DNA of 23,640 nt from IMG/VR virus record IMGVR_UViG_3300003323_000374, positions 1 through 23,640 of that record, one strand, 5' to 3'. The notes under the pieces were generated by a model, which did not search any database, was not told where the DNA came from, and saw only the letters and a program-made list of their open reading frames with translations. The translations under genes were made by a program, and so were the position numbers. Positions within the stretch are counted from its first letter, which is position 1. Every line of letters begins with the position of its first letter. Shown here in pieces: positions 1,103 to 19,640 of the stretch. The DNA comes from a virus.

Positions 1103-1342
1103 ATGGCTTATAATAAAACTAACTACTACAAGAAAATTGTAAAAATCCAGGAGATCACGGAGGAATACAGATTCCGCCAGGGGTTGACCTATAAGGAGAT
1201 TTTCTACAGTTATATTGAGCCACAGTTCCACATATCCCGGCGAACCTTTGGAACCTATTTAGGAATACCGGCAAAACGTGAACTGAAAAAATTACAGGAA
1301 AAAGAGAACAGCAATGGAAATCAACTAACCTTTAATTTTTAA
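1103..1342 (+). CDS. small helix-turn-helix-like protein, candidate late-gene regulator
   Basis: This 79-aa basic protein reads as several helices. The segment GLTYKEIF...HISRRTFGTYLGI (about residues 27-55) looks like a helix-turn-helix: a helix that positions, a turn, then a recognition helix led by SRRTF. The tail after residue 58 is charged and probably disordered. Similar short proteins sit in Bacteroidetes Mu-like phages; I know no assigned role. It lies directly before the endolysin, the place of the Mor and C activators in Mu, and behind a repeat-rich gap. An activator of the divergent late promoters is a reasonable inference, unproven. It shows no clear sequence match to Mor. Confidence 0.6.
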   Translation: MAYNKTNYYKKIVKIQEITEEYRFRQGLTYKEIFYSYIEPQFHISRRTFGTYLGIPAKRELKKLQEKENSNGNQLTFNF

Positions 1343-1346
1343 TACA

Positions 1347-1847
1347 ATGGACAAAGTAACGCAAGAAAGAATCTCAAAACTACACCCAAGTGTAAGAGAA
1401 GAAGTAACAAAAATCATTAACGAATGTAACGCAAGTTTAACCGGCCGTGCTCAGGTCAGGATTTCACAGGGCCTGCGAACTTTTGAGGAGCAAAACCAAC
1501 TCTATGCTCAAGGAAGAACAATAGCCGGTAAAAAAGTAACCAATGCCAAAGCCGGGCAAAGCATCCACAATTACGGTTTTGCGGTCGATATCGTACTGAT
1601 CATTGACGGAAAAACAGCAAGCTGGGACACGGCAAAGGATTGGGACAATGACGGCGTTGCAGATTGGTTTGAGTGCGTCAAAATTTTTGCCCGTCATGGA
1701 TGGGATTGGGGTGGAAACTGGAAAACCTTCAAGGATCTTCCACACTTTGAAAAAAAGGCTATTCCTACTCAAAAAGGCCCTGTAAAAACCAGCTGGCGAA
1801 CGCTTATGAATATGCCAAAAGATAAACAAAACTATGTAATACTGTAA
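1347..1847 (+). CDS. endolysin, M15-family L-Ala-D-Glu / D-Ala-D-Ala type peptidase
   Basis: This 166-aa zinc peptidase of the VanY/M15 group cuts peptide bonds in peptidoglycan stem peptides at the end of infection. Visible M15 marks are GLRTFEEQNQLYAQGRT (about 42-58) with the conserved Arg44, then SIHNYGFAVD (72-81) giving zinc ligands His74 and Asp81, and LPHFE (131-135) giving His133 with an acidic residue. Length fits single-domain phage endolysins. There is no signal peptide or membrane anchor, so export would depend on a holin; the candidate is far away at 19098-19640. Position after the HTH-like gene matches the Mu order regulator then lysozyme, although Mu uses a different enzyme class. 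Confidence 0.92.
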   Translation: MDKVTQERISKLHPSVREEVTKIINECNASLTGRAQVRISQGLRTFEEQNQLYAQGRTIAGKKVTNAKAGQSIHNYGFAVDIVLIIDGKTASWDTAKDWDNDGVADWFECVKIFARHGWDWGGNWKTFKDLPHFEKKAIPTQKGPVKTSWRTLMNMPKDKQNYVIL

Positions 1848-2785: not shown

Positions 2786-3097
2786 ATGAAACTATTAGTA
2801 TTTATTTTATTGAGCAGCTTAATGAGCGCACAGGTAAATCCTGCAAGGAGCAAAGGAGAAGTTTTTAAACATCGCCCTGAACGGCCCTATGAAAATACAG
2901 ATTATTCCGGATTGGTTGTTGTAGAGCGGTCAATGTACGGATTGAATTTTCAGGACAAGCAATTGTCTTCAGATGTGAAACAGCGGATTGAGAAATTCTT
3001 TAAACGTCATTTAAACGGATATACAGAATTAAAAACGTACCAGATCCGGATTCAAAAGAAACGCAGTAAATGGTACGTTGATAATATTGAAATTTAG
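2786..3097 (+). CDS. secreted small basic protein, unknown function
   Basis: This 103-aa protein has a clear N-terminal signal peptide: MK, then LLVFILLSSL, then a cleavage-like MSAQ at residues 13-16. No lipobox Cys is present, so a soluble periplasmic or outer-surface protein is expected. The mature part is basic and ends with alternating charged and hydrophobic residues suggestive of beta strands. Family not recognised. Its stop codon overlaps the stop of the opposing gene at 3094 by 4 bp (TTAG). Exported small proteins in such cargo positions sometimes block superinfection; that is only a contextual guess. A paired TTTAAA motif lies within its 3' half (2999-3016). Confidence 0.55.
   Translation: MKLLVFILLSSLMSAQVNPARSKGEVFKHRPERPYENTDYSGLVVVERSMYGLNFQDKQLSSDVKQRIEKFFKRHLNGYTELKTYQIRIQKKRSKWYVDNIEI
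2999..3016. repeat. paired TTTAAA motif, copy 2 (coding)
   Basis: TTTAAACGTCATTTAAAC has the same 11-bp spacing as the intergenic copies. It lies inside a coding sequence, where it also spells Phe-Lys-Arg-His-Leu-Asn, so codon content alone might explain it. Confidence 0.4.
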
Positions 3098-9164: not shown

Positions 9165-10760
9165 TTAAAATCTGTTAGGGTTACGGTCATTGATTTCCTT
9201 CCGGCTGGTAGTCCTGGGAGGTATTTTATTGATTGCAGCTGCAACATTTAATTTGCTAATGGCTGACTGTAAGGCATCGGGTCCGTCATCATGTGCCCCG
9301 CTTCCTTGAGAAAAAGCAAGAAGCTGATTGACGAGCTCGTGATTGTCTGTAGATTCCCGGTGTTTTTCATTGAACCAAATGTTGCCACGCTGGAAATATC
9401 CCTGCATGCTTTCAATACGGTCAAACTTTCCTGATTTTGTTTTTTCGTCAGCTACAACAGGAATGTACCAGCCCACTTCATCACCAACAGCGTCAAAATC
9501 GCTCACAAATTCATCCTGAGCAAATAGACCTTCGATGAAATAAGAAATATTATAATTAAGAAGACTGTTATCCTGAACATACTCATAAAGCCACTTAGCA
9601 ACATTGTATCTTGATGTCTGTCTCACAAAAGAATTGAGGATATGAAATTCACGTCCTATCTTACCTGCAAATATCATTGCCTTAAAATCCCCTTCATTTT
9701 TGTATGAAAGGTCACCATAAAACACCAGGGCATCATATGAGCGAAACTGTAACCGGGGTTTATACTGTATCCATTCGTTTTTAAAGAGTTTTCCTTCCAC
9801 GATATGGACGTGCATGTATTCACGCATGAACGATCTGTAAGGGGTAGACAGATATTTCAGTTTCCAGTATTCAGCAGTGGTTTTTTCTGGCCAGTTAGGT
9901 TCAAAGGTTGTTAAATTTTTAACCGCCGGAACTGTAAGGGTAAAGAATGTAGATTTAAGTCCAGCCTCTTTTAATTTCTGAGTAATGATCTTAAATTCTT
10001 CCTTCAATTGGTTGATCAGGGTATTTTTATGGAAGTTGTTATTAGCTACAACAAATCTGCGATAGGGAGAACCTTCATCAAAGGTCCCTTTGGCATCCTC
10101 CCAGGCAAAATCAAATAATTTTGTTGAAAGATCATCGTTATTCACCCTTTGCCTGGTATCCACGTCATCAAAAACAATATAATCCGGACGGGATGAACCT
10201 TCACGCAATCCCCTTGGTGATTGTCCAGGAGTTGAAGTCATAAACTTGGCTCCATCTGTTGTGGTAAAATCACCATCAGACCAGTCACCATATTTGAACT
10301 TTTTACCGTAATAGTGGACAAATTTCTGATTGTAGCTGAACTCGGCCTGAATATCAGAAATCAGCTTTTTGGCCTTCTTATCTGTTTGACCAAATAAAAG
10401 CATGAATTTTAATTCACCAGTAACATAGAGGTATAAAGGGATTCCTAAATCAATATGTACAGACTTTGCGCCTGATCGGTAAATTTCCGCCAGAACATCA
10501 CACACCGGATTTTTAATGATAAGATCTGCAAGTTTCTTATGATACCAGGCACATTTTACTTTTGCATAATGGGGGAAAAATTCTTCAAACCAAGTGATAT
10601 AATCTTTTTCCCATTCTAAACGCTTCTTTCTTCTCTCTGTTGGAGTTTCATTTGGGTTAAGTCCTGAGCCTGTAGATTGTTTAATGCCTTTGCAATGCTC
10701 ATCATAATCGAGGAGCATTTTTTCATAGACTTTTGTTAATTTAAAATCTGTAGTACTCAT
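9165..10760 (-). CDS. terminase large subunit
   Basis: This 531-aa packaging motor cuts and pumps phage DNA into proheads. The ATPase half shows a variant Walker A, RSGAKS (95-100), followed by VHIDLGIPLYLYVTGE as in Mu-type large terminases. Walker B is DYIVFDD (193-199) after the STPGQSPRGLREG loop. The nuclease half shows acidic positions expected of an RNase H-like fold: FYGDLS (347-352, Asp350), an acidic strand near FIEG (408-411) and HDDGPDAL (490-497). Length is normal for the family. Its start overlaps the stop of the small subunit gene by one base. Confidence 0.94.
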   Translation of the reverse strand: MSTTDFKLTKVYEKMLLDYDEHCKGIKQSTGSGLNPNETPTERRKKRLEWEKDYITWFEEFFPHYAKVKCAWYHKKLADLIIKNPVCDVLAEIYRSGAKSVHIDLGIPLYLYVTGELKFMLLFGQTDKKAKKLISDIQAEFSYNQKFVHYYGKKFKYGDWSDGDFTTTDGAKFMTSTPGQSPRGLREGSSRPDYIVFDDVDTRQRVNNDDLSTKLFDFAWEDAKGTFDEGSPYRRFVVANNNFHKNTLINQLKEEFKIITQKLKEAGLKSTFFTLTVPAVKNLTTFEPNWPEKTTAEYWKLKYLSTPYRSFMREYMHVHIVEGKLFKNEWIQYKPRLQFRSYDALVFYGDLSYKNEGDFKAMIFAGKIGREFHILNSFVRQTSRYNVAKWLYEYVQDNSLLNYNISYFIEGLFAQDEFVSDFDAVGDEVGWYIPVVADEKTKSGKFDRIESMQGYFQRGNIWFNEKHRESTDNHELVNQLLAFSQGSGAHDDGPDALQSAISKLNVAAAINKIPPRTTSRKEINDRNPNRF

Positions 10761-11203
10761 TACTGTTCCTGTTGTGCTTTATATAGGAGAAACATCTTAT
10801 GCCATTCAAGGAATGAGACAGCCGCTTCCGGATCTTGTACTGCCATCCACGAATCAAACTCTTTTAATACTGCCATAGCGATCTGAGCTGAGACCTTATC
10901 AGAAAGGAGCTCAATTGCCTTTGTTACTGCTGCGATTGCTTTTACATCAATCTTTGAATCTTTGCCTTCTGCGAGATCTCCGAGTTCAGTCATTAAGACC
11001 TTTTTGATGTTGTTTGGAGCAGTTAAGTATTGTTTCCTTTTTTCATCCCAGGAGATATCACCCTGTATTCCTTTACGCCATCTACCAATTGTCTGTTCAG
11101 TTACATCAATAGTACCGGCAATTGCTTTTGCCGTCATTCCTTCCTCAACAAACATCTTCTCAGCTAATGCACGTAAGGGCTCATTATTTACTCTTTTTGC
11201 CAT
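10760..11203 (-). CDS. putative terminase small subunit (HTH protein)
   Basis: This is a 147-aa protein from ATG 11203; an upstream in-frame start at 11260 would cover the divergent control region and is rejected. The N-terminal part carries a helix-turn-helix (AEKMFVEEGMTAKAIAGTIDVTEQTIGRWRKG, about residues 13-44) of the type used to bind pac or cos DNA. A basic linker and a helical C-terminal half (KAIAAVTKAIELLSDKVSAQ) follow, suited to oligomerisation. It starts the leftward late operon and is coupled to the large subunit by a TAATG overlap, which supports the assignment. Confidence 0.82.
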   Translation of the reverse strand: MAKRVNNEPLRALAEKMFVEEGMTAKAIAGTIDVTEQTIGRWRKGIQGDISWDEKRKQYLTAPNNIKKVLMTELGDLAEGKDSKIDVKAIAAVTKAIELLSDKVSAQIAMAVLKEFDSWMAVQDPEAAVSFLEWHKMFLLYKAQQEQ

Positions 11204-11216
11204 TGTACACTTTTGG

Positions 11217-11226
11217 GCAAACTTCC
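11217..11226 (-). promoter_or_regulatory. candidate leftward late promoter -7-like box
   Basis: Read leftward this is GGAAGTTTGC, giving GAAGTTTG against TAnnTTTG, one mismatch in TA. It is the mirror image of the rightward box about the centre at 11262. No -33 box at the usual distance was found. The start ATG of the terminase small subunit gene follows 13 bp further on. Confidence 0.3.
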
Positions 11227-11273
11227 AAACAAAAAAGACGGTTTTTTTAAAAAGTGGCAACCCTTGCCGAGGA

Positions 11274-11306
11274 TTTACAAACCTCTGTTTCAGTGTTTTA
11301 AGTTTG
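11274..11306 (+). promoter_or_regulatory. candidate rightward late promoter
   Basis: TAAGTTTG at 11299-11306 matches the Bacteroidetes -7 consensus TAnnTTTG. A weak -33 candidate, TTTAC, starts at 11274 with about 20 bp between. Transcription would start near 11310-11313, leaving a leader of about 15 bases before ATG 11327. The poor -33 box suggests activator dependence. Confidence 0.42.
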
Positions 11307-11326
11307 CTAAAAAATCAATCGGACAC

Positions 11327-12496
11327 ATGATATTCGGTATTAATGAAAACACACTAACGATGTACGGAACCATATGGGAATATGATGGTACGGACTTCGT
11401 TTATTACTTGAGCCTTCTTGAGAAAAAATACTCAGAGATAACAATAAGACTGCACACGTACGGCGGGAGTGTTTTTGCCGGAAATCTAATGTGTAACGCT
11501 GTTGAGAGATCCAATGCAGACATTACAATTATAATAGATGGGCTAGCCGCCTCGATGGGTGCGATTTTCATACTATCCTCCAAAAAAGTAAAAATCGTAA
11601 ATAACGGATACGTGATGATTCACGCACCCTCTAGTGGCTCCTATGGTAATGCAAAAGATCACGAATCCAATGCAAAGCTTTTGCGCTTAATGGAAGATAA
11701 TTTTGAGCATAAACTTATGCTCAGAACCGGCAGATCAAAAGAAGAAGTAAGAACCTGGCTCGATTCTGATACGTGGCTGAGCGCTCAGGAGGCTTTAGAT
11801 CTTGGACTGGTTTCAGAAATTATCCCCGCATCTATTGATACAGTGTATCCTTCATTCGTCCCTGAAGAGGTGGGAGAAACGGAGGTTTTCAATATGTATG
11901 CTGCCTTGCTTACCTCTATTCCTACACCGGCGGTCAGTGCCTTTATGGGTTTTCCGCAAGTTCAGGCACAACAAACACAACAAACAAATTTTAACGACAA
12001 TATGAAACAGTTATTAATTACTGCGTTTGCCCTAAAAGAGGTAACAGCGCAAAGTGCTGATACGGCGGTATTACAAGCTTTACAAACCGAGTTTACAAAC
12101 CTGACCACAGCAAAAAACACTGCTGAATCCGCCAAAACAGCAGCAGAGAATAAACTCAAAGAATTTCAAGACGGTCGTATCAAGGCAATTATTGACGGTG
12201 CAGCTGCTGGTCTTGGAAAAACCTTTACGGAAGATGAACGAAAAACTTATGAGTCTATTGGTGCTACTTCCGGGGTTGAAGCTCTTGAATTAGTGTTCAA
12301 GAACGTAACAAAGCCTCAGGCTCCTAATATTTCAGCAGCAATTCAGGCAGGCGTACAGTCCGGGGCTGTAACTGCTGGCAGGGAAAGTTGGGATTTTGCC
12401 CAGTGGCAAAAAGAAGATCCAAAAGGTCTGGAAAAAATGGCGGCTGAAGAAGCTGAAAAATTCCAGGCATTGTTTAACGCAAAATACAGTAAATAA
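11327..12496 (+). CDS. prohead protease (ClpP/S14 type) with C-terminal scaffold
   Basis: This is a 389-aa protein from ATG 11327; a frame-open start at 11213 would run through the divergent control region and is rejected. Residues 1-165 are ClpP-like: GGSVFAGN near 46-53, Ser76 in GLAASMGAI, His99 in MIHAP and Asp148 in SDTWLSAQEALDLGLV form the expected catalytic triad. A Pro/Gln-rich hinge (about 195-222, including QAQQTQQTN) leads to an Ala/Glu/Lys-rich helical region (226-389) typical of scaffolds. The protease would trim capsid and scaffold during prohead maturation. The same gene plan is found in Mu gene I. The major capsid gene follows 2 bp later. Confidence 0.9.
   Translation: MIFGINENTLTMYGTIWEYDGTDFVYYLSLLEKKYSEITIRLHTYGGSVFAGNLMCNAVERSNADITIIIDGLAASMGAIFILSSKKVKIVNNGYVMIHAPSSGSYGNAKDHESNAKLLRLMEDNFEHKLMLRTGRSKEEVRTWLDSDTWLSAQEALDLGLVSEIIPASIDTVYPSFVPEEVGETEVFNMYAALLTSIPTPAVSAFMGFPQVQAQQTQQTNFNDNMKQLLITAFALKEVTAQSADTAVLQALQTEFTNLTTAKNTAESAKTAAENKLKEFQDGRIKAIIDGAAAGLGKTFTEDERKTYESIGATSGVEALELVFKNVTKPQAPNISAAIQAGVQSGAVTAGRESWDFAQWQKEDPKGLEKMAAEEAEKFQALFNAKYSK
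12002..12496 (+). CDS. possible nested scaffold protein from an internal start
   Basis: ATG 12002 (Met226 of the protease-scaffold) sits exactly at the hinge between protease and helical domains and would give a 164-aa scaffold alone. Mu makes scaffold gpZ this way from inside gene I. There is no clear Shine-Dalgarno sequence, though Bacteroidetes often lack one, so the evidence is position plus precedent. Confidence 0.3.
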   Translation: MKQLLITAFALKEVTAQSADTAVLQALQTEFTNLTTAKNTAESAKTAAENKLKEFQDGRIKAIIDGAAAGLGKTFTEDERKTYESIGATSGVEALELVFKNVTKPQAPNISAAIQAGVQSGAVTAGRESWDFAQWQKEDPKGLEKMAAEEAEKFQALFNAKYSK

Positions 12497-19101: not shown

Positions 19102-19640
19102 AAGAATTATTAATTTATAAAAAGCCTGTCATTGCAATACTGGCAGCTACAAAAAAACCCGCTGTGATTGTTCCTGCTTTAGGATTCCTGTCACTTTCTG
19201 ACTGTACTTTAGGTATTTTCCTACTATTGGGGCTAATGGCATTAGATTTTGTCACGGGGGTCCTTGCATCCTGGAACATGTGGAAAAACTCAAAAATAGA
19301 AAGTAATTTTTGGAAGTATGGATTTTCTAGTTCCAGGATTCGACTGTCTATTGCGAAAAGTGTTACTTATTTCCTGCTTATTATCTGCTCCTATGGTATT
19401 GAGGAGATATTTAAAATAAAAAGCTTTGGTGCTAATAGCTATACTGAACATGAAATAACAATCTCTCTTTTGGCCATAGCGTTTGCATGCTCAATAGAGT
19501 TTTACTCAATATTCTTTGAAAACCTTCCTAAAGCCGGATTTGATATCTGGAGCTATTTCAAGAAAATGACTTCAAAAATTAAATCTGGAATAAGTACAAT
19601 TAAAGATATCACCAAAGATGACAATAACAGTGCTGCATAA
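19098..19640 (+). CDS. phage holin (Phage_holin_4 type)
   Basis: This 180-aa membrane protein has hydrophobic segments at about 22-57, 85-104 and 119-140. The first contains LLGLMALDFVTGVLASW with the DxxTG element at 50-54, a mark of Phage_holin_4-type holins, followed by a charged loop and SSRIRLSIAKSVTYF. The C-terminus (about 150-180) is Lys-rich, then acidic, as in holins with a cytoplasmic tail. It would release the signal-less M15 endolysin. It lies inside the baseplate operon, 17.7 kb from the endolysin, overlapping genes on both sides (4 bp and 23 bp). Holin function is inferred from the family pattern. Confidence 0.8.
   Translation: MKELLIYKKPVIAILAATKKPAVIVPALGFLSLSDCTLGIFLLLGLMALDFVTGVLASWNMWKNSKIESNFWKYGFSSSRIRLSIAKSVTYFLLIICSYGIEEIFKIKSFGANSYTEHEITISLLAIAFACSIEFYSIFFENLPKAGFDIWSYFKKMTSKIKSGISTIKDITKDDNNSAA

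Follow-up and report, generated by a model that had tools for sequence, protein, structure and literature searches.

How are the two late operons of a Mu-like phage switched on when they diverge from a gap of only 123 bp? The DNA analyzed here, a 23,640-base IMG/VR virus record referred to over its whole length as the window, comes from a Mu-like phage of Bacteroidota (Flavobacteriia). Its nearest GenBank phage is Flavobacterium phage fF4, and related prophages are carried by Elizabethkingia, Epilithonimonas and Flavobacterium. In the ORF map, a terminase/portal operon runs leftward to 3094, headed by the gene for the terminase small subunit (TerS; 10760-11203, minus strand; phrog_4151, phrog_2538) and including that for the large subunit (9165-10760, minus strand; phrog_38, 8e-61). 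A protease/capsid/tail operon runs rightward to 23622, headed by the gene for a ClpP-like head maturation protease (11327-12496, plus strand; PF00574, phrog_94). The 123 bp lie between the TerS start at 11203 and the protease start at 11327.

Concentric symmetry and outward-facing boxes between the operons

A preliminary description of this DNA placed an inner palindrome, an outer inverted repeat and TTTT/AAAA flanks around one centre at 11262. Coordinates read directly agree. The palindrome consists of GGCAA (11256-11260), CCC (11261-11263) and TTGCC (11264-11268); the arms of the concentric inverted repeat, each a box with its following C, are GCAAACTT (11217-11224) and AAGTTTGC (11300-11307); the flanks occupy 11211-11214 and 11310-11313; and every pair sums to 2 x 11262. 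Also borne out are the outward-facing -7-like boxes attributed to the outer arms, namely TAAGTTTG rightward (11299-11306, plus strand) and GAAGTTTG leftward (11218-11225, minus strand). The description's further statement that the usual -33 boxes are missing holds as well, as no TTG or TTTG stands at -33 on either side of the window and no such element is conserved in relatives. This is weak evidence by itself, since the -33 element is faint in Flavobacterium promoters generally (PMC6847099).

Both boxes match the -7 box of Bacteroidota sigma-ABfr, TANNTTTG, in that A-11 and TTTG-5 are invariant on both sides, at the exact distance, in near relatives, apart from two near relatives with ATTG in place of TTTG in the rightward box. 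Because the G of this box lies at -5 relative to the start (PMC6847099), transcription is predicted to begin at about 11213 leftward and about 11311 rightward, so that the dyad is centred at about -49 relative to either start. The two boxes of the window differ from one another (TAAG versus GAAG), and only the right-hand one has T-12. That base is nearly invariant in host boxes, whereas it occurs in 36 of 87 rightward and 8 of 87 leftward phage boxes. Conversely, G-9 is almost absent in hosts and present in 36/87 rightward phage boxes. Rightward late boxes with this base include TAAGTTTG and TATGTTTG; in F. johnsoniae promoters it is almost never found there.

Taken alone, the concentric symmetry of the window is suggestive. 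A comparable concentric pair (inner arm at least 5, outer arm at least 8) arose in 35 of 20,000 dinucleotide shuffles of 11204-11326, corresponding to a post hoc p of about 0.002. It is the relatives that settle the matter: on comparative evidence, the dyad is real and functional.

Fixed spacing and a 21-bp ladder in related phages

Relatives were gathered from viral contigs, genomes and phage records with TerS and protease queries; a first scan of genome contigs with the protease query gave no matches. Measured from the dyad centre to the C of the leftward CAAA and to the G of the rightward TTTG, the spacing is exactly 44 bp on each side in all 26 distinct near relatives (51-98% identity in TerS). 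The invariant columns in these are the A and TTTG of the boxes, the ATTG variant apart, and the AA..TT of the core. When CAAA-to-TTTG distances were counted without supervision across 113 distinct regions, 59 had 88 bp, 15 had 109 bp and 13 had 130 bp; other distances occurred 1.28 times on average and 6 times at most, leaving aside side peaks at 80/81, which we ascribe to a second CAAA. Within the 88-bp class the core GCAA-N3-TTGC is exact in 45/59 regions, at least one half is present in 57/59, and the dyad score has its sole peak at the centre midway between the boxes. These results, together with the dyad score and a position weight matrix (PWM) considered below, define a central 21-bp unit at 11252-11272, centred on 11262, as the predicted activator-binding site. 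The spacer columns have a mean identity of only 0.34 and are nearly saturated with substitutions, and leader length, from box to start codon, varies freely among regions. The fixed distance must therefore be selected and not merely inherited. The 113 regions are related by descent and the counts are not independent, a difficulty that the tree described below and the spacer saturation answer only in part.

The preliminary description had proposed looking for the symmetry in related phages, and the 44 + 44 geometry of the near relatives meets that proposal. It had also named as a refutation conserved promoters without a shared centre, which were sought in the 88-bp class and not found. Chance symmetry, or conservation of coding sequence in an N-terminal extension of the protease ORF, is scarcely credible as the source of the pattern. 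The protease frame is indeed open from a TTG at 11213 in the window, and in some relatives too, but the dyad and the spacing persist across an otherwise almost random spacer, which neither chance nor coding would explain, and the comparative data refute this reading. The N-terminal extension from TTG 11213 also fails as a gene model, since stop codons and changes of frame occur in, for example, L004/L020, L008/L018, L010 and L025. Some relatives carry a conserved-looking peptide, ..FFKKWQPL.., in this upstream frame (11213-11326); others have stops, so the frame is not coding.

The three spacing classes are separated by steps of 21 bp, or two helical turns. In the 109-bp and 130-bp classes the dyad score has maxima at precisely 44 bp from either box, with a third peak, from a middle unit, in the 130-bp class, and self-identity at a shift of 21 is 0.60 and 0.53, respectively, against about 0.25. 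From the dyad peaks and this self-identity we therefore infer that the interval between the promoters contains between one and three 21-bp units, contiguous where there are several. In the two longer classes, each outer unit keeps the 44-bp distance to the box on its side. The window belongs to the one-unit class, in which the single predicted site must serve both promoters. On a quick TerS tree built from few columns, spacing class changed at least 11 times, always among 88, 109 and 130, that is, by multiples of 21 bp. Complete dyads in tandem at a 21-bp pitch, such as TTGCAAGCCTTGCAA twice, were seen in L137 (109-bp class) and in the unclassified L105, whose intergenic region has three neighbouring pattern matches (G734).

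Repressors commonly have a dyad between two promoters as well, and the central dyad could in principle be an operator through which a repressor silences both late promoters in the prophage. We regard this as very unlikely. The central site overlaps neither -7 box; a repressor would need neither the fixed 44-bp distance nor, in the 109-bp and 130-bp classes, a correctly spaced copy for each promoter; and T-12, which host promoters retain, is often absent from the boxes. Activation is favoured because poor boxes are combined with a fixed upstream dyad, and because a fixed site-to-box distance, with a separate copy for each promoter where there are several units, is what an activator needs. The preliminary description had envisaged one central operator serving two activator-dependent promoters at equal distance. 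The 44 + 44 geometry, the centred dyad signal and the outer units of the longer classes all support it.

About a quarter of the 113 regions fall outside all three classes. Among them are hankyphage p00, Peternella and TCUEAP3, which have the same gene order and no clear fit to the geometry or the ladder. The TerS/protease intergenic region of TCUEAP3, where the divergent gene order is alike, contains GGTATCATACC-type repeats, and that of Peternella contains CTGTAGG-N5-CCTACAG and a repeated ATTCCGTATG; these are perhaps the sites of other activators. In two human faecal phages (L078, 12-85; L079, 1380-1454) a tRNA-Met (CAT) comes immediately after the rightward late -7 box and ahead of the late genes. 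In Flavobacterium davisii the prophage TerS frame is interrupted by stop codons in two overlapping matches (L052/L056), and from its sequence this prophage looks decayed.

The element also appears to be unique within each genome. The PWM of site plus box finds its sole match in the window at 11262, on both strands, at 41.1 and 39.3 bits; the next match scores 3.1 bits, and shuffled sequences reach up to 8.2. The complete genome of fF4, a phage reported to be released spontaneously by F. columnare ATCC 23463, is matched at the homologous place only, where the G of the rightward box is at 19358 (plus strand) and the C of the leftward box at 19270 (minus-strand promoter), and no further site-plus-box copy rises above shuffled background in either the window or fF4. 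Across 35 records, the pattern of a site with a box at 44 bp stands out at the divergent place, while its other matches mostly have two mismatches and occur at about control level. As far as pattern searches can tell, the divergent element is probably the only late switch of the phage.

A small helix-turn-helix protein as the candidate activator

The preliminary description had put forward as a candidate binder the 79-aa protein encoded at 1103-1342 (plus strand), directly before the gene for an endolysin of the M15/VanY peptidase type (1347-1847, plus strand; PF13539, phrog_15351). Members of its family are present in 27 of 44 records (E<=0.1), and a deeper profile found remote homologues in 16/27 mostly remote records. 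An AF2 model (pLDDT 90) has a helix-turn-helix (HTH) formed by helices 30-42 and 46-53.

Two opposite recombinants bear on the identity of the binder, in a comparison where L065 stood in for the near-identical region of L145. In L164, a TerS of the L157/L172 group is combined with an HTH protein that shares 74% identity with that of L145; its sites are of the L145 type and its spacing is 130 bp. L149 shows the reverse: its TerS belongs to the L145/L150 group (57-59%), its HTH protein is of the type found in L157/L172/L176 (52-63%), and it has the GCAA-TTGC site and 88-bp spacing of the latter three. In these two natural recombinants, on sequence comparison, site type and spacing track the small HTH protein and not TerS. 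This matters for the possibility that the same divergent promoter and central activator site are used by a different binder, whether TerS, another phage protein or a host factor. TerS heads the leftward operon, contains an HTH of its own and is co-inherited by position, yet in both recombinants site and spacing go with the HTH protein. Another binder is therefore improbable, although it cannot be dismissed. The 79-aa protein is likely to be the late activator, and the candidacy has gained from the recombinants; it rests on co-inheritance, these two included, and on gene position, without binding data.

The AF2 model of the 79-aa protein has no clear structural match. Foldseek searches (PDB, BFVD) and VIA-align with the model returned no convincing relative, only generic HTH/wHTH matches; its comparison with the Mu transpososome gave a Z of 5.1. 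Searching sequences of solved structures with the protein gave only weak matches to RpoN DNA-binding domains (E 0.03). According to the authors of the fF4 study, HHpred connects the gene preceding that of the endolysin with Mu mor (PMC7761591). That gene is ORF14 in their numbering and ORF13 by our count, and its identification with the 79-aa gene rests on adjacency to the endolysin. No match to PF08765 (Mor) passed the cut-off in 36 records and none at all was found in the window, and hhalign of the 79-aa profile against Mu Mor/C gave a probability of 0.8% over 12 columns, with a Mor/C profile of two sequences only. These profile tests do not place the 79-aa family in the Mor family.

Proposed mechanism and comparison with known late switches

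Most probably, then, positions 11213-11311 constitute a divergent late promoter pair with one shared central activator site; the starts, the binding, the activation and the use of one dimer from two sides are inferred. What our data establish for this explanation is the sequence itself, its geometry, its conservation, its uniqueness in each genome and the fact that site type is inherited together with the small protein. The activator, most likely the 79-aa protein encoded at 1103-1342, would be made from an early or middle transcript. The host housekeeping RNA polymerase would read both -7 boxes (AnnTTTG core), which may be too weak to function unaided. A dimer of the small phage HTH protein would bind the central dyad and, being symmetric, could offer one subunit to the polymerase on each side, and so would activate leftward transcription of the terminase/portal operon and rightward transcription of the protease/capsid/tail operon. 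Synchronous expression of the two operons is plausible, though not shown: with 98 bp between them, one polymerase might assist the other, interfere with it or have no effect.

The closest precedent is the PO/PP region of coliphage P2, where one annotated site for Ogr (or P4 delta) at 3057-3087 lies between divergent starts at 3016 (minus strand) and 3127 (plus strand). As predicted for the present phage, the starts are equidistant from the site, to within a base, and a terminase/portal operon is transcribed one way and scaffold/capsid genes the other. The present phage thus has the layout expected of an Ogr-type system, in which one dyad stands midway between divergent operons for terminase and capsid. 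In Smp131, likewise, PP' and PO' are assigned to one TGT-N12-ACA (PMC3931495). An exact TGT-N12-ACA was not found between the two P2 starts, so the comparison with P2 rests on the record annotation and PMC3931495. P2 differs in several respects. Ogr is a zinc-finger protein (CX2CX22CX4C), whereas the 79-aa HTH protein has no cysteine and does not qualify as an Ogr. P2 has four late promoters, against apparently one divergent late pair per genome here, and the present phages combine -7 boxes of the Bacteroidota type with between one and three 21-bp units.

The likeness to Mor suggested in the preliminary description stands as a way of working and fails as family membership, for want of a PF08765 match. 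At Mu Pm, a Mor dimer on a dyad centred at -43.5 replaces the -35 element (PMC4390567). The present pair resembles Pm in relying on a phage-coded activator dimer on a dyad, here by inference. Mu also has its activator gene just before the lysis gene (lys after C), as the 79-aa gene precedes that of the endolysin, and the Mor/C-type combination of such a gene order with a dyad upstream of a promoter without a -35/-33 element is present here. Unlike the present pair, Pm is unidirectional, and Mu assigns Pm to Mor and its late promoters, of which there are several, to C. The bidirectional promoters of E. coli described by Warman, Grainger and colleagues likewise use symmetric DNA to drive divergent transcription. 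There, a -10 element is shared and the two polymerases exclude each other (PMC12825309), while here two separate boxes stand 88 bp apart and the shared element is the activator site.

The shared-site layout is already known from P2; novel here are the family of the activator, the type of host promoter, the 21-bp ladder and the reliance on an apparently sole switch. In literature searches we came across no account of late promoters or late regulation in the Mu-like phages of Bacteroidota. A more general proposal, which we hold with no greater conviction for than against, is that of a modular switch: an activator family unrelated to Mor/C and Ogr, acting on one to three contiguous 21-bp units placed 44 bp from the end -7 boxes in the sole late promoter region, with a single dimer serving two polymerases at once in the one-unit form. 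The analysis provides a concrete late-control model for Mu-like phages of Bacteroidota. The 88/109/130-bp ladder constitutes a natural experiment on activator distance and helical face in polymerase recruitment, and bears on whether a single dimer is able to act on two polymerases. Should the model be confirmed, activator and site together would form a compact, orthogonal switch for bidirectional expression in a phylum with few genetic tools.
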